A stretch of DNA of 64,000 nt, from contig CP018227.1 of assembly GCA_016865035.1 (NCBI GenBank), positions 1,458,001 through 1,522,000 of the forward strand, read 5' to 3'. The stretch comes from Kordiimonadales bacterium IMCC3096 (GTDB taxonomy: Bacteria; Pseudomonadota; Alphaproteobacteria; Minwuiales; Minwuiaceae). The notes beneath the pieces were generated by a model. That model had not been told where the DNA came from. It did no database searches and was given only the letters and a program-made list of their open reading frames with translations. The position numbers and the translations under genes were made by a program. Below, piece by piece: positions 6,777 through 51,127 of the stretch. How positions within the stretch are numbered: the first letter of the stretch is position 1; the number at the start of each line of letters is the position of its first letter.

Positions 6777-8227
6777 GCGAAGCCGGGGGGCGGAACGACG
6801 CCGCCAAGCGCCTTCTCCAGATGCCGTGCCACATGCAGCGCGGAGCGATCCTCCATGAAGTTGGCGACCACCTGTACCCCGACCGGCAGCCCAGCATCGG
6901 TGCGCCCGACTGGCACCACGGTGGCAGGCAGATAGACCCCGCAGGTCAGGCCGCACCAGACGATCATGTCGACATAGTTGCGGCTCTGGCCGGCGATCTC
7001 CACGGTTCGGGTGCCGAAGCTGGCGGACTGGTCGTGCGGAATGGCCGCGCGCGGCATGACCGGGCAGAGCAGCACATCCACATCGCCGAAAAAGCGGTTC
7101 CACATCTCCCGCAGCACCGCCCGGCGCTCATCCCAGTCCAGCCATTCCGCATGGTCCATGACCGCGCCACGGGCGAAGATCGCCTGATGGCTGTGGTCGT
7201 CGGCGTCCGGCGGGTTCTCGCGCAGTTTCCGCCGCATGCTCTCCGGCAGACCGGCACCAAGCGCGGCCGCCAGCAGGCTGTAGTAGATCTCGTGCGATTC
7301 CCGCATGTCGACAGCGGGGCGGGCCGAACGATCCACCCTGGCGCCCATTTCCTCCAGCGCCGTGCCCGCCCCCTCGATCAGGTCACGGAACTCCGGGTCA
7401 ACGGCACAGAACGGGTCGTCGGACCAGACGGCAATCCTGTAGTCGCGGATGGCCTCATGCCGCGCATTGGCGAGCTTCAGCTTCCAGCCCGCCTGATCCA
7501 GCATGTCGGACCCGGCCATGACATCCAGCGCCAGTTCCAGGTCATCGACACTGCGCGCCAGCGGCCCCGCGACCCCGATATCGGCCCCGGTCAGCGCACC
7601 CGGCGGCCCCGGAATATGGCCACGGATCGGCACCGCGCCAAAGCTCGGCTTGTGCCCGGTGACGCCACAGAAATGCGCCGGATTGCGGATCGAGCCGCCA
7701 ATGTCCGATCCCAGTTCCAGCGCGGTGAAGCCGGACGCCAGCGCGGCGGCGGAACCGCCCGACGACCCCCCCGGCGCGCGGCTCACGTCCCAGGGATTGT
7801 TGGTCGTGCCGAAGACCGCGTTGTAGGTCTGCAGGTCCCCGGCGTAGAGCGGCGTGTTGGTCTTGCCATAGATGATCGCCCCGGCCTCGATCAGGCGCTC
7901 GACCGCCGTGGCATGGCGATTCGGCTGATGATCCTTCAGTTCCGGCGCGCCCGCGGTGCAGGCCATGCCGACAACCTCGAACGTGTCCTTCACCGTCATC
8001 GGCAGCCCGTGCAGCGGCCCCCAGCTCTCCCCCCGGGCCGCCGCAGCGTCCGCCGCGCGGGCGCGGGCGCGGGCGGCATCCACATCCGTTGCCACCACCG
8101 CGTTGATCTGCCCGTTGAACCGTTCCAGCCGATCAAGGTAATGATCCAGCACCTCTTCCGACCGCAGCGTCTGCTGGCCAATGGCGGCCACCAGTTCCCG
8201 CGCCGACATGTATGACGGATCGCCCAT
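6773..8227 (-). CDS. amidase signature family protein
   Basis: 484 residues from the ATG at 8227, chosen because GGAGG lies about nine bases upstream and the product then begins at the usual N-terminal helix. The amidase-signature Ser-cisSer-Lys triad is complete: K80 (MTVKDTF), S155 in GGSSGGSAAALASG and S179 in GSDIGGSIRNPA. Such enzymes hydrolyse carboxamides; nothing indicates an aminoacyl-tRNA amidotransferase role, since no gatB/gatC is adjacent. It is the first gene of an operon with the opine-dehydrogenase-like and 3HCDH genes, suggesting sequential breakdown of an amide-containing compound. Confidence 0.9.
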   Translation of the reverse strand: MGDPSYMSARELVAAIGQQTLRSEEVLDHYLDRLERFNGQINAVVATDVDAARARARAADAAAARGESWGPLHGLPMTVKDTFEVVGMACTAGAPELKDHQPNRHATAVERLIEAGAIIYGKTNTPLYAGDLQTYNAVFGTTNNPWDVSRAPGGSSGGSAAALASGFTALELGSDIGGSIRNPAHFCGVTGHKPSFGAVPIRGHIPGPPGALTGADIGVAGPLARSVDDLELALDVMAGSDMLDQAGWKLKLANARHEAIRDYRIAVWSDDPFCAVDPEFRDLIEGAGTALEEMGARVDRSARPAVDMRESHEIYYSLLAAALGAGLPESMRRKLRENPPDADDHSHQAIFARGAVMDHAEWLDWDERRAVLREMWNRFFGDVDVLLCPVMPRAAIPHDQSASFGTRTVEIAGQSRNYVDMIVWCGLTCGVYLPATVVPVGRTDAGLPVGVQVVANFMEDRSALHVARHLEKALGGVVPPPGFA

Positions 8228-9462: not shown

Positions 9463-10632
9463 ATGGCCAAGAAACTCGTCATCAGGAACATCGGGCTGCT
9501 GTTGTCCGGTGATCTGGCAAACCCGATCCTGGATGCCGACTGCATCGTGGCGCTGGATGGCCGGATCGCGGCCATCGGCAAGGCGAAGGATCTGGACACC
9601 GATCAGGCGGATGTGGAGGTCGATGCGAAGGGGACCGCCGTGTCGCCGGGCCTGATCGACAGCCATGTGCATCCGGTGATCGGCGACTATACCCCCCGGC
9701 AATCGCAGCTCAGCTGGATCGATTCCTGCCTGCATGGCGGCGTCACCACCATGATCTCCGCCGGGGAGGTGCATCTGCCCGGCCGCCCGAAGGACATCGT
9801 CGGGCTGAAGGCGCTCGCGATCGCGTCACAGCGCTGGTACGAGAATTTCCGCCCCTCCGGCGTGAAGGTGCACGGCGGTGCGCCGGTGATCGAACAGGGC
9901 ATGGACGAGAACGACTTCAAGGACCTGGCCGACGCGGGCGTCAAACTGCTGGGGGAGGTCGGTCTCGGCTCGGTCAAGGCAGGGGAGACCGCCAAGGAGA
10001 TGGTCGGCTGGGCCCGGAAGTACGGCATCCAGTCCACCATCCATACCGGCGGCCCGTCGATTCCGGGGTCGGGCCTGATCGACAAGGATGTGGTGCTGGA
10101 GGCGGATGCCGACATCATCGGCCACATCAATGGCGGCCACACCGCCCTGCCCGACGACCAGATCGTCTGCCTGTGCGAGCAGTGCGGCCGCGGCATCGAA
10201 CTGGTGCACAACGGCAACGAGCGCGCGGCCCTGCTGGCCATGAACACGGCGCGGGAACTCGGCCAGATGGATCGCGTGATCCTGGGCACCGACGCCCCCG
10301 CCGGGTCCGGGGTGCAGCCGCTCGGCATCCTGCGCATGATCGCGCTGCTGTCGTCGTTCGGTGACGTGAAGGCGGAGACGGCCTTCTGCTTCGCCACCGG
10401 CAATACGGCGCGGATGCGCGACCTGGATACCGGCCTGGTCGAGGTCGGCATGGCCGCCGACTTCGTGCTGCTGGACCAGGCTCAGCACGCGCCGGGGAAG
10501 AACATGCTGGAATCCATCGAGCAGGGGAACCTGCCCGGCGTCGGCATGACCATCATCGACGGCGCCATCACCAGCGAACGCAGCCGCAACACCCCGCCCG
10601 CAACGGTCCTGCCGGAGCGGGTACGGGGCTGA
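9463..10632 (+). CDS. amidohydrolase, enamidase-like (6-oxotetrahydronicotinate amidohydrolase type)
   Basis: 389 residues, matching the length of Eubacterium barkeri enamidase, to which long stretches correspond (GGVTTMISAG, PGRPKD, GVKVHGGA, HTGGPSIPGS, HINGGHTA, SRNTPPA near the end). Metal ligands include H68 and H70 (SHVHP), E165 in GEVGLG taking the bridging role that carboxylated lysine plays in other amidohydrolases, and the H of IHTGG. Enamidase opens a cyclic enamide during nicotinate fermentation. In this aerobic-looking genome it probably acts on a related cyclic enamide or lactam. AGGGGGACAGGAC precedes the start. It follows DUF1491 and HAD in one likely transcript. Confidence 0.88.
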   Translation: MAKKLVIRNIGLLLSGDLANPILDADCIVALDGRIAAIGKAKDLDTDQADVEVDAKGTAVSPGLIDSHVHPVIGDYTPRQSQLSWIDSCLHGGVTTMISAGEVHLPGRPKDIVGLKALAIASQRWYENFRPSGVKVHGGAPVIEQGMDENDFKDLADAGVKLLGEVGLGSVKAGETAKEMVGWARKYGIQSTIHTGGPSIPGSGLIDKDVVLEADADIIGHINGGHTALPDDQIVCLCEQCGRGIELVHNGNERAALLAMNTARELGQMDRVILGTDAPAGSGVQPLGILRMIALLSSFGDVKAETAFCFATGNTARMRDLDTGLVEVGMAADFVLLDQAQHAPGKNMLESIEQGNLPGVGMTIIDGAITSERSRNTPPATVLPERVRG

Positions 10633-10639
10633 TCCCCCA

Positions 10640-10866
10640 CCACCACGGCGCTCGCGGACTTGATCCGCGAGCCCAGTCTCCCACGCCAGTGCGACACTCC
10701 TGGGTACCCGGGTCAAGCCCGGGCACGGCGTGAATTTGGGTGTGATTGCGGAGATGTTTCGGCACCTCCCCATCACCACGGTGCTCGCGGACTTGATCCG
10801 CGAGCCCAGTCTCCCACGCCGGTGCGGCACCGCTGGGTACCCGGATCAAGTCCGGGTACGGCGTCG
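10640..10866. repeat. ~125-bp palindromic repeat unit, two copies (cluster 2)
   Basis: Two copies of the element described at 4400, with first palindromes starting at 10651 and 10784 (133 bp apart) and second palindromes near 10703-10727 and 10835-10859. The copies have a few substitutions, partly compensatory (GATCAAGTCCGGGTAC in the second). They lie between the ends of the convergent enamidase and choV genes. Confidence 0.88.
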
Positions 10867-47491: not shown

Positions 47492-48049
47492 ATGTTCACC
47501 CGCAAACCGAACGGACAGGATGGCGAAGGCAGCAGCGAGGCACAGCGCCCGGCACCGAAGACGAGCACGCCGATGCCGACGGAGGACCTGATCGCGCGCC
47601 GCCCCCGACCCGACATTCCCCGCCCCCGGCAGGAGGCGCCGATGCGCATCCCCGGCAGCAGCGCGAAGGAAGAGGAATCGCGCCTGCTGGTCGGCAGCGG
47701 CATCTCCCTGAAGGGGGAGGTCAGCAACTGCGCCGAACTGGTGATCGAGGGCGCGGTCGACGCCCGTGTCGAGGCCACCAGCTTCCGCGTCAGCCCCGGG
47801 GGAAGTTACGCCGGTGAATGCCACGTCGATACCGCCGACATCGCCGGCGACTTCGAAGGCACCCTGAACTGCCGCGAACGCCTGATCGTCCGCTCCACCG
47901 GCAAGCTGAAAGGCATCCTGCGCTACGGCGAAGTCGAGATCGAGGCGGGCGGCCGCATCGCCGGCGAGATCCAGATGTTCGGCGAGGGGCAGGAGACGGA
48001 AGCGACGCCGACGGAAGCCGCACCGAGGAAGGCCGCGAACAGCGAGTGA
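47492..48049 (+). CDS. bactofilin family cytoskeletal protein
   Basis: 185 residues from the ATG at 47492, with GAGGAAGGCGG upstream. A disordered, proline-rich N-terminal tail (to residue ~60) precedes a right-handed beta-helix: repeated motifs GSGISLKGEVSNCAELVIEG, FRVSPGGSYAGECHVD, GTLNCRERLIVRSTGKLKG and GEVEIEAGGRIAGEI, the DUF583 signature. Bactofilins polymerise without nucleotide and organise cell-wall and stalk growth. A longer frame to 47255 lacks family sequence. The gene ends 48 bases before a duplicated tRNA fragment. Confidence 0.9.
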   Translation: MFTRKPNGQDGEGSSEAQRPAPKTSTPMPTEDLIARRPRPDIPRPRQEAPMRIPGSSAKEEESRLLVGSGISLKGEVSNCAELVIEGAVDARVEATSFRVSPGGSYAGECHVDTADIAGDFEGTLNCRERLIVRSTGKLKGILRYGEVEIEAGGRIAGEIQMFGEGQETEATPTEAAPRKAANSE

Positions 48050-48097: not shown

Positions 48098-48144
48098 AAT
48101 GGTGCGCTGAGTGGACCCGAACCACCGACCTACCAACTACGAAT
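48098..48144 (-). repeat. duplicated 3' half of tRNA-Thr(CGT): candidate att site (distal end)
   Basis: 47 bases nearly identical to 49896-49943, which contains the 3' half (anticodon loop to CCA) of the tRNA-Thr gene: one base deleted in the acceptor stem and three T/C changes. The identity stops sharply at GAAT, within the anticodon loop, and the 5' half is missing. Same orientation as the tRNA. This is the pattern left by a tyrosine-recombinase element inserted at a tRNA 3' end. An old tRNA duplication with loss of the 5' half is the alternative. Confidence 0.75.
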
Positions 48145-48489
48145 ATGCCGGCGAACCAGGGACGAAGGATTTCATGCGCCAAGCGGCCTCCTGTTGAAGC
48201 CGCATGGCAGAGGGGGCGTCGTGGCCAGCGGCGCAAAGTAAGCCGTTCTTTTACCTGAGCGAGCGAGTTCGGTTTCTAAGGCTCTCCTTCCCTTTGGTAA
48301 TTTCGTCACACGGCACGCCACAACGTTCGTCGGCCGGGCGGCCAACAACCTTGCTTCGCCGAAACCCTTGCGTGGGGGACCCAGTTGATGATTCCGCCAA
48401 CACGCATGAGCGATGAACTCGGCTGGCCAGTTCAATTCCGGCAGTGATAGCCTGCAGATACGGCAATCGTACGAGGAGTTACCGGAGAA
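48145..48489. other. non-coding part of the island
   Basis: 345 bases between the distal tRNA fragment and the lipoprotein gene. Short open frames exist on both strands but none has a convincing ribosome site, family sequence or codon pattern. The right end must contain the lipoprotein promoter; GAGGAGTTACCGGAG just before the gene is a strong ribosome site. Confidence 0.4.
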
Positions 48490-49362
48490 ATGAGCTGGTG
48501 TGGAGATCGTCGAAAAATTCTCACCGCGATGGGAAGCGCAGCTCTTCTGATGGGCTGCAGCAAGATTGGCCAAAGCTCTGGCCGCGTTCTCCACGTTCAA
48601 TCGGGACAGACGAAACGACTTCCTGCAAGGCTATGGCGGTTTGACTCCGTGCATATCGAGAAAGGAGGTACGCTGCTCATCGTCGCCAATAGCCAAGACT
48701 GGTTGATTCTGGACGTGGCCGGTGACGTTCATTTGGATGGCCGTATCGATTTCGGAAGCTTCAGTTCCGACCGCCGAATATTTGAGGCCACAACCCCTTC
48801 AGGCCTTCGACTCAGCCATCAGTTCTCCATGTCGAATATTGGAGGAAACGGTGGCGACGGTGGAAGCCAAGGCGGACCTCTTGTTGGTGGTGCCGGTGCT
48901 GCCGGAACCACGGAACACGGCGGTGGTGGAGGCAGCGGCGCAGTGCACGACGCACACCGGAGGCGACCAGGACAACCGGCTGTCGGCAGAATCGGGGCAG
49001 AGCGGGGGACCTTTGGCGCTGGTGGCGACGGAGGACGACGAGGAAACACCAACGGCGGCTTGATGTTCATAGGAGTTGGCGGAAAAGCCATCGGATCAGG
49101 CGTGATTGATGTGCGAGGAGTGTCAGGCGAGGACGGCAAAGCTGGTGCTGGAGGCATACCGAGGAACGTTGGGACGGGCGGCGGTGGCGGTGGCGCTCCA
49201 GGAGGCGAAGGGGGAGTTGTCTGGGTGCAAACGCCCGATAGCAGAACTCCGGGCTGGACGTTCCTTGTCGATGGTGGTCGCGCAGGTATCGGGGGACCGT
49301 CCAGGGGAGTGCCGGGTACCGACGGCGAGGATGGTCTTTCCGGTTACTTTCTGACGCTCTAG
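48490..49362 (+). CDS. glycine-rich putative lipoprotein (island gene)
   Basis: 290 residues. The N-terminus RRKILTAMGSAALLMGCS has a twin-arginine-like start, a short hydrophobic core and a lipobox LMGC, suggesting an exported lipoprotein cleaved before C22. Residues about 35-110 are beta-strand rich (LRVQSGQTKRL-like, VHIEKGGTLLIVAN, ILDVAGDVHLDGRI) as in right-handed beta-helix proteins. From residue 115 on the protein is very glycine-rich (GGNGGDGGSQGG, GGGGGSG, GTGGGGGGAPGGEGG), like the glycine-rich surface repeats of other bacterial adhesin-type proteins. I do not recognise a defined family. Base composition is lower in GC than its neighbours. Confidence 0.7.
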   Translation: MSWCGDRRKILTAMGSAALLMGCSKIGQSSGRVLHVQSGQTKRLPARLWRFDSVHIEKGGTLLIVANSQDWLILDVAGDVHLDGRIDFGSFSSDRRIFEATTPSGLRLSHQFSMSNIGGNGGDGGSQGGPLVGGAGAAGTTEHGGGGGSGAVHDAHRRRPGQPAVGRIGAERGTFGAGGDGGRRGNTNGGLMFIGVGGKAIGSGVIDVRGVSGEDGKAGAGGIPRNVGTGGGGGGAPGGEGGVVWVQTPDSRTPGWTFLVDGGRAGIGGPSRGVPGTDGEDGLSGYFLTL

Positions 49363-49895
49363 CGTTGGTTGGGCAGAAGATATTCGGTGGTATCAGGTCC
49401 GATACACTGTCGCGTGTGTTGACGCCAATCGCCTCCGCCCACTCCTGACCAGCCCCGCCTCACCCCCTGCCCTGGCAGAATGTATGTGTACGACCTGTCG
49501 GACCGTTGCAGGCTGTTCCTGACCGCATTTGGTCCGATTACCGGGACCGTGAAAGGGAAGGCAAAGTCTGGCAGAGGCGGAGCGGTAGGAAATCAGGGAC
49601 AGCCTGCACGCATCATCGGACCGGCAGACGCGATACGGCTGATTGGCGACGTTGAGTTTCCCCGCCCCCTAACGCGCGCGCGGGTGTCATCGGGATGCGC
49701 CGGAGCCGGATGCGCGGTGGACTGTCTACCGGGCCGAAGAGCCTTGAAGGGCGCGCGCGCATCGCGGAAGCGCAGAGGCAGCGTAGGCGATCCAATCAGC
49801 CGCTGCTGGCACCAGCGAAGAATGCCCCCGGTGCCTACCATGTGATTGCTGGGCGTAAATCAAAAACACTGCCCGTGATCTAACCCGTTGAAAGG
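49363..49895. other. region without a convincing gene (right part of island)
   Basis: About 530 bases between the lipoprotein gene and tRNA-Thr. Several short frames are open but show no normal codon pattern. One (49695-49883) has a recognisable motif and is listed separately. No terminator, integrase or repeat is evident. Confidence 0.4.
49695..49883 (+). pseudogene. possible remnant of an HGG-STGPKT motif protein
   Basis: The frame reads RGGLSTGPKSLEGRARIAEAQ, close to the HGGxSTGPKTxEGRxRIxxAQ motif that ends small proteins associated with phages and mobile elements in alphaproteobacteria. The expected cysteine-rich N-terminal part (CGAxTRxGxPC) is not intact in the same frame, and a stop lies upstream, so it looks broken. 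Confidence 0.3.
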
Positions 49896-49943
49896 AATGG
49901 TGCCGCTGAGTGGACTCGAACCACCGACCTACTAATTACGAAT
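49896..49943 (-). repeat. tRNA-Thr 3'-half copy inside the intact tRNA gene (proximal att)
   Basis: This is the counterpart of 48098-48144: the 3' half of tRNA-Thr from the anticodon loop to CCA plus two flanking bases. Integration at this site keeps the tRNA whole on one side and leaves a partial copy on the other, which is what is seen. Confidence 0.7.
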
Positions 49944-49973
49944 CAGTTGCTCTACCAGCTGAGCTACAGCGGC
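49898..49973 (-). tRNA. tRNA-Thr (anticodon CGT)
   Basis: 76 bases on the minus strand with encoded CCA. The acceptor stem GCCGCTG pairs perfectly with CAGCGGC; discriminator A. D-arm GCTC-AGCTGGTAG-AGC, anticodon stem ACTGA/TTAGT with loop TTCGTAA, T-arm GGTGG-TTCGAGT-CCACT. Anticodon CGT reads the threonine codon ACG. Its 3' half is duplicated at 48098-48144. Confidence 0.95.
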
Positions 49974-50053: not shown

Positions 50054-51127
50054 TCAGGGTGACGGGGCCGCGCGGGAGACGGCGTGGAGGCGCAGGGGCT
50101 GGTTGCGGCCCCGGATGTCGGTGCTGCCGATGTCGGTGATGTGCAGGCCAGCCGCCCCGGCGCCATCCGGGCTGCGGAGGCTTTCGTCCAGCACGGCGTC
50201 GCTGGCCAGCAGGGCGCAGTCATGGCTGCGGCAGAGCTCCACCATCCGCGCGGTCGTGTTCATGGCGTCGCCCAGCATCACGATCTCCTGCCGCAGCTCC
50301 CCCATCTCCCCCATCACCACCGGTCCCGCATGCACCGCGCCGCGCAGGCGCGGGGCGAGGCCGTAGTCGCGGCGGTAGCGGTCTGCCGCCTGGTCGAGCA
50401 CCTGCTGGAAATCCAGACCGCACAGGAGGGCGGCGAGGCGCGCGTCCGGCCGGTCGGGCCAGGAGACGATCATCTCGTCACCGACGTATTTCTCGATCAC
50501 GCCGCGCCGCTCGATCACCGGGCCGGTGAGGTCGCGATAGACGTCGCGCAGCAGCCCGTGAAACGCCAGGTCGCCGATGGCCTGGGCGGCGGCGGTGGAT
50601 CCCACCAGGTCGACGAACAGCAGCACGCGCGGCTCGACCACCGGCCGGTGATAGCGCCCGGTCAGGAAGTTCAGGAACACCGCCTGCCCCAGCAGCCGGT
50701 TGACCGACATGGCGAAATTGACCGCCAGGCTGATAACCAGCGAGAAGCCGAGCTGGATCGCGGTCTCGCTGTTCCAGCCGAAGGGGGTGGAGGCCGTGAT
50801 CGGGAACAGGGCGGCGCCGGACTGGATGCCTGCCAGAATGATCACGAGATACAGCAGGGACCGCAGCAGCAGTTGCGCGCTGAACGACAGCCGCCGCATC
50901 CAGGCGCCGTTGGCACCATTGATGTAGAAGGATTCGATCGCCACCAGCAGGGAGGCAATGAAGCCTCCCGTCCAGACCCCGCGGAACGCCGCAGCAGCAA
51001 CCGTCGCGACACGTGTTTCATCGTCGCCGCTGACCGCTATCGCGATGCCGAAGATCGCGCCGAGAAGGGCGGCGCTGCCCGCGATGATGGCGCAGGCGCG
51101 GATGTCACGTTTCAGGCGTCTGTTCAT
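50054..51127 (-). CDS. membrane-bound class III adenylate/guanylate cyclase
   Basis: 357 residues. The first ~150 contain about four hydrophobic helices (ACAIIAGSAALLGAIFGIAIA, a second near 55-70, YLVIILAGIQSGAALF, LGFSLVISLAVNFA), then a cyclase homology domain: metal-binding aspartates in LLFVDLVGSTAAA and KYVGDEMIVSW, and LGDAMNTTARM with the transition-state residues. It should make cAMP (or cGMP) at the inner membrane. It is convergent with nothing and divergent from the D-aminoacylase gene across about 140 bases; the tRNA promoter lies just past its 3' end. Confidence 0.88.
   Translation of the reverse strand: MNRRLKRDIRACAIIAGSAALLGAIFGIAIAVSGDDETRVATVAAAAFRGVWTGGFIASLLVAIESFYINGANGAWMRRLSFSAQLLLRSLLYLVIILAGIQSGAALFPITASTPFGWNSETAIQLGFSLVISLAVNFAMSVNRLLGQAVFLNFLTGRYHRPVVEPRVLLFVDLVGSTAAAQAIGDLAFHGLLRDVYRDLTGPVIERRGVIEKYVGDEMIVSWPDRPDARLAALLCGLDFQQVLDQAADRYRRDYGLAPRLRGAVHAGPVVMGEMGELRQEIVMLGDAMNTTARMVELCRSHDCALLASDAVLDESLRSPDGAGAAGLHITDIGSTDIRGRNQPLRLHAVSRAAPSP

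Follow-up and report, generated by a model that had tools for sequence, protein, structure and literature searches.

How did the 3' half of a tRNA gene come to be present twice in the same orientation, and how did the DNA between the two copies get there? These questions were addressed in a window of 64,000 nucleotides, by which we mean the whole stretch of DNA analyzed, corresponding to bases 1458001-1522000 of the 4.29-Mb single-contig Minwuia genome G000 (Alphaproteobacteria). ARAGORN identified a single tRNA gene in the window, that for tRNA-Thr(CGT), which lies at 49898-49973 (minus strand). The features needed below, with the evidence for each, are as follows.

47492-48049, plus strand: bactofilin gene, left chromosomal flank (PF04519; collinear in the congeners G001 and G002)
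48098-48144, minus strand: displaced, putatively original tRNA 3' half, one att copy (alignment; matches the single copy in the G002 empty site)
48145-49897, no strand: inserted DNA, very likely an integrase-less tRNA island (absent from G002; other DNA in G001 and G005; 60.5% GC)
48490-49362, plus strand: cargo ORFan of 290 amino acids, glycine rich, with a lipobox-like N terminus, LLMGC (ORF list; GC3 of 0.545)
49695-49883, plus strand: short degenerate ORF with similarity to the HGGxSTG domain (NF041373, 17.5 bits, cut-off of 29)
49880-49893, plus strand: element-end motif CTAACCCGTTGAAA, a putative integrase-binding (arm-type) site (common to the G005 insert and both G001 inserts)
49896-49943, minus strand: working tRNA-Thr 3' half, putatively brought by the inserted element, the other att copy (alignment with the displaced copy)
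49898-49973, minus strand: tRNA-Thr(CGT), the intact integration target (ARAGORN; Rfam RF00005, 71 bits)
50054-51127, minus strand: adenylate/guanylate cyclase-domain gene, right chromosomal flank (PF00211; collinear in G001 and G002)

The two tRNA 3' halves, at 48098-48144 and 49896-49943, were identical in 44 of 48 aligned columns and differed by three T/C substitutions and a single-base deletion. The initial annotation had reported this same-orientation duplication with an identity of 43/48; the duplication itself held, and the count was corrected. The local alignment of the two halves scored 75, whereas the best of 300 shuffles scored 34, and a whole-genome search matched the copy at 48098 to the tRNA with an E value of 1e-11 (92% over 48 bp). 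The sharp stop of the copy in the anticodon loop, also noticed earlier, was found exactly at ...ACGAAT. Its one-base deletion lies in the acceptor stem, and similar deletions in the acceptor-stem stretch were found in the second fragment of G001 and in one fragment of another locus, L061 (see below). Measured from crossover to crossover, the segment is about 1.8 kb long, slightly more than the ~1.75 kb first given. The locus therefore has what identifies a tRNA island, namely, an intact tRNA gene and, on its 3' side, a displaced fragment of the 3' end that is oriented like the gene.

The insert is foreign. Its GC content is 60.5%, against 66.1% in the left flank and 68.3% in the right flank, and the GC3 of the cargo ORF is 0.545, against 0.87 to 0.89 in four neighboring genes, which bears out the difference in composition first read from the sequence. 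The C-terminal part of the cargo protein is glycine rich (36% Gly). No match to this protein was found in Pfam, NCBIfam, or PADLOC or among plasmids, and no relative was found among 385 alphaproteobacterial genomes, including three congeners. Its predicted structure was unusable (mean pLDDT of 38); a surface lipoprotein would be a guess, made from composition only. The small ORF at 49695-49883 aligned to a stretch of the G005 insert that matches HGGxSTG at 38.9 bits; the alignment score was 57, compared with 33 for shuffles, so that this stretch is common to the G000 and G005 inserts. As had been claimed, no integrase was recognized in the insert, nor were replication or transfer genes, among its ORFs or Pfam matches. 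We rejected a phage satellite (e.g., a PICI), because the insert has no satellite replication or packaging genes and no integrase of its own; it has only the Gly-rich ORF and the HGGxSTG remnant.

Next, the same tRNA was compared among Minwuia congeners. G002 has an empty site, in which the bactofilin stop codon is followed by 54 bp and a single tRNA with no partial copy, and its flanks are collinear with those of the window (89.5% and 87.7%). Such a site, with about 50 bases between bactofilin and the tRNA, had been predicted by the initial annotation. G001, whose left flank is about 93% identical to that of the window, has two inserts in tandem at tRNA-Thr(CGT) and three successive copies of the tRNA end; the tRNA-proximal insert encodes a protein of 330 amino acids with no Pfam match and a weak PADLOC match. 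In G005, a third, different insert adjoins tRNA-Thr(CGT), and it may be longer than seen because the contig starts within it. Within the sequence seen, which is incomplete for G005, no integrase was found in the G001 and G005 inserts. The left flank of G004 differs from that of the window. The integrase that adjoins tRNA-Thr(CGT) in G003 is of the P4 type (Arm-DNA-bind_3, Phage_int_M, and Phage_integrase domains), with restriction-modification-like genes behind it (L060, C31:362000-374000); next to it are a large ORF that resembles a methyltransferase and another that resembles a helicase, these genes, unlike the integrase, being named by ORF reading. The distal end of this island was not found within 70 kb. 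Therefore, different inserts, or an integrase, occupy this tRNA in different congeners, and the site has been used repeatedly for integration in the genus. The early reading of integration at the tRNA 3' end was thus strengthened by the empty site of G002 and the different inserts of G001 and G005, and the larger, integrase-bearing island that was to be looked for in relatives is present in G003. Relatives with the same partial copy but unrelated or vertically conserved content between the copies, or a lipoprotein ancestral to the lineage, had been named as grounds for abandoning that reading; what we found, inserts in G001 and G005 that differ from that of the window and a cargo without relatives, left it standing.

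Which of the two halves came with the insert could be read from the T stem in G001. The T arm of its working tRNA is GAGAGG/CCTCC, a compensated change, and the T stem GAGTGG/CCACC is found in the outermost displaced fragment of G001 and in G000, G002, G003, and G006. Since the working T stem of G001 is unlike that of the outermost fragment, the 3' half in use was brought by the insert and the host half was displaced. The donation of the 3' half by an insert is seen directly in G001 only, and this T-stem switch shows directly, at the sequence level, that such inserts take the place of the host's own tRNA 3' half. Both halves in G000 share one T-stem type and are too alike to tell apart in this way; donation in the window thus rests on the position of the halves and on the decay of the far copy.

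A common end, CTAA[C/A]CCGTTGAAA, is present in all four Minwuia inserts, four bases before the CCA end of the tRNA. In the window, this end is the 14-bp motif CTAACCCGTTGAAA; the outer insert of G001 has a one-base variant, CTAAACCGTTGAAA, and the G002 empty site has another sequence at the same position. A relaxed 13-mer pattern occurred at four places in nine genomes of the order, all of them at tRNA-Thr(CGT), and the control gave zero. Apart from this 14-mer, the inserts fall into two sorts: the two G001 inserts have about 80 bp of end sequence in common, and those of G000 and G005 have the HGGxSTG stretch in common. Between the two sorts, the best alignment was the end motif, with a score at or below the best shuffled scores, and no other homology was therefore detected.

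The duplication could instead have arisen by chance or by illegitimate recombination, with no integrase involved. Partial sequence duplications do occur; however, such an origin would have to account for a breakpoint exactly at the anticodon loop, the empty site in G002, the recurrence of the event in tandem in G001, the foreign GC3, and the shared end motif. The shared motif and the repeated use of one crossover site already contradict it, and we consider it extremely improbable.

The motif was also searched for outside the genus. When the 13-mer was combined with the start of the tRNA acceptor end, nine places were found in 84,980 species genomes, two of these places being in Minwuia; by our own estimate, about 0.8 matches would be expected by chance. 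Complete tRNA genes adjoin the motif at four of the seven other places: Thr-CGT twice, Thr-TGT in Tahibacter soli, and Leu-CAA in an acidobacterium. The remaining three comprise one with a tRNA-Leu-like 3' fragment, one cut by a contig end, and one with no recognizable tRNA. Altogether, there are five distant genomes in which the exact 13-mer adjoins a tRNA, either a complete gene or, in one case, a 3' fragment. In L061, from a Desulfobulbaceae MAG, two tRNA-Leu-like 3' fragments stand in tandem, each after the motif or a two-base variant of it; a gene for a Fic/DUF4172 protein lies just inside one of them. In Tahibacter soli, an ORF that reads as a HigA-like antitoxin type (L152:944-1249) lies beside tRNA-Thr(TGT), ~260 bp from the motif.

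The presence of the motif at the ends of the inserts and beside distant tRNAs marks it as a conserved sign of an insert end, and, since the exact 13-mer adjoins tRNAs in five distant genomes, it is probably an integrase-binding site, presumably of the arm type. The 13-mer alone is no tRNA signature in Alphaproteobacteria, because the motif together with TGG had four matches outside Minwuia in 385 alphaproteobacterial genomes, none at tRNAs. In a scan of viral contigs, the motif was confined to a single coding stretch, from one type of phage, and lay at no tRNA end. Searches of phages and plasmids with the att region matched tRNA genes; none of the places in phages covered 80% of the query, and the few places in plasmids were only 72 to 80% identical. 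Among the matches listed in a literature search with the letters of the motif, the papers were on unrelated subjects. This cross-phylum end motif has possibly not been described so far.

The integrase of G003 adjoins the same target tRNA, and the small inserts could be deletion derivatives of a P4-integrase island of that kind. However, the G003 island lacks the end motif, both in the sequence of its locus and in the order-wide pattern scan. The P4-type integrase (PF13356) was rejected as the owner of the motif by a search of 120 genomes: most of the 30 P4-type loci obtained had a tRNA beside the integrase gene, and none of the 30 had the motif beside the tRNA. A descent from G003-type islands is therefore very improbable, and the G003 island, with an integrase type that comes without the motif, is not established as parent or helper of the small inserts.

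Two other integrase types were examined as owners of the motif. An Integrase_1 (PF12835) gene lies with a short ORF at L067:1086-2413, ~1 to 2 kb from the motif and tRNA-Thr(CGT). PF12835 was not found in nine genomes of the order, where the control likewise had no match, and was present in 15 of 299 proteobacterial genomes. It matched all three motif-bearing gammaproteobacterial genomes, once below the cut-off, compared with these 15/299 in the phylum. Integrase_1 was nevertheless rejected, as the loci sampled from the 15 genomes had neither a tRNA nor the motif within 1.5 kb; with no linkage of PF12835 to tRNAs in this sample, its co-occurrence with the motif in Gammaproteobacteria may be coincidence. 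A truncated XerA-like integrase fragment adjoins the motif in L066. Relatives of this integrase often lie beside tRNAs but without the motif, and it was rejected as well. Thus, among the P4-type, Integrase_1, and XerA-like integrases, each tested in turn, none was linked to the motif.

Taken together, the segment is very likely an integrase-less tRNA island. In the mechanism that we propose, a small foreign island would have entered the anticodon loop of tRNA-Thr(CGT) by site-specific recombination of the tyrosine-integrase type. In the crossover, an identical or near-identical 3' half from the island would have taken the place of the chromosomal one, so that the tRNA kept working, and the original half would have been pushed to 48098-48144, where it decayed. 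The 14-bp mark CTAACCCGTTGAAA is probably the binding site of the integrase that moved the inserts. Since no insert as sequenced encodes an integrase, that enzyme would have been provided in trans, or would have worked in cis from an island that was then co-resident and is now gone. The insert of the window is probably immobile in G000 at present, as no integrase there could be linked to the motif.

How the inserts came to be without an integrase is a separate matter. The window segment could be what is left of a formerly autonomous island that lost its integrase and transfer genes by deletion at the site and never used a trans-acting integrase; it would still be a tRNA island. The degenerate HGGxSTG ORF beside the tRNA (17.5 bits), the four changes in the displaced fragment, the long stretches with no convincing gene on either side of the cargo ORF, and the truncated integrase that adjoins the motif in L066 are all consistent with decay in place. 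On the other hand, four Minwuia inserts with different cargo share the motif and show no integrase in the sequence seen (incomplete for G005), and repeated independent loss is less economical than a nonautonomous family. Decay in place is a substantial possibility that stops short of being probable. That different inserts with a common end, none with an integrase in view, have used one site repeatedly favors a helper integrase over in-place decay, and this helper step, taken by itself, is marginally probable. The best reading of the segment is an island of the CIME (cis-mobilizable element) kind, whose integrase came from another source or has since disappeared.

Elements of this kind are already known. 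CIMEs lie between att sites at the end of a gene, lack genes for integration and transfer, and accrete in tandem (PMC5704250). The window insert apparently keeps its att sites, as judged by alignment, and likewise lacks integration and transfer genes, and inserts stand in tandem in G001. For the Minwuia inserts, however, no ICE or IME turned up that is related and matches them in its att ends, and the motif scans gave no parent element. The ssrA islands of Dehalococcoides also form tandem arrays in which a short motif adjoins the repeat; 15 of these islands have no integration module (PMC3146451). The likeness to the Minwuia inserts is close and extends to different cargoes stacked at one RNA gene, direct repeats of its 3' end, and a conserved motif on the element side, whereas the ssrA islands have a tmRNA target, a serine recombinase, and another motif, and relatives with an integration module are known for them but not for the Minwuia inserts. 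The window locus resembles the islands described with Islander in having a working tRNA, a displaced 3' fragment, and an anticodon-loop crossover. Damage to such fragments recurs around a position 3 bp before the discriminator (PMC4383910), and the one-base acceptor-stem deletion in the window fragment is close to this site. Islander, however, accepts only elements of at least 2 kb and requires an integrase (PMC4383910), and the window element would therefore be filtered out. An integrase of its own, which characterizes autonomous islands and which Islander requires but which is not part of the definition of an island, was not found in the insert.

Cargo-only inserts are likely undercounted, because island finders such as Islander drop elements that are shorter than 2 kb or have no integrase; the shared end motif makes this class of insert searchable. 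A broader reading, which we think unlikely, is that the inserts belong to a cross-phylum family of very small recombinase-less cassettes at tRNA 3' ends, with a shared end site, TAACCCGTTGAAA, 3 to 6 bases outside the CCA, and that one integrase family would move many unrelated cassettes in trans. In this reading, the cassettes would be inserted serially, with the newest adjoining the tRNA, and the family would be a tRNA-based counterpart of integron cassettes. The window insert itself lies in the anticodon loop of a tRNA gene whose 3' half is duplicated, a mode of insertion not known for integron cassettes. If the motif did mark one trans-acting integrase family across phyla, this would explain how tiny ORFan or defense-like genes spread without a recombinase.

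Two other tRNA loci in G000 carry integrase genes. At L056 (C1:696000-709000), a Phage_integrase gene (C1:702257-702775) lies near tRNA-Ser(GCT) (7548-7638), and a 20-bp exact copy of the 3' end of this tRNA is found at L056:314-333, 7.2 kb from the tRNA; this locus is a candidate autonomous island. At L057 (C1:2104000-2120000), a P4-type integrase lies ~5 kb from tRNA-Ser(GGA) (10575-10662), with a 14-bp match to the 3' end of that tRNA beside the integrase (L057:4693-4706), and this is possibly another tRNA island.
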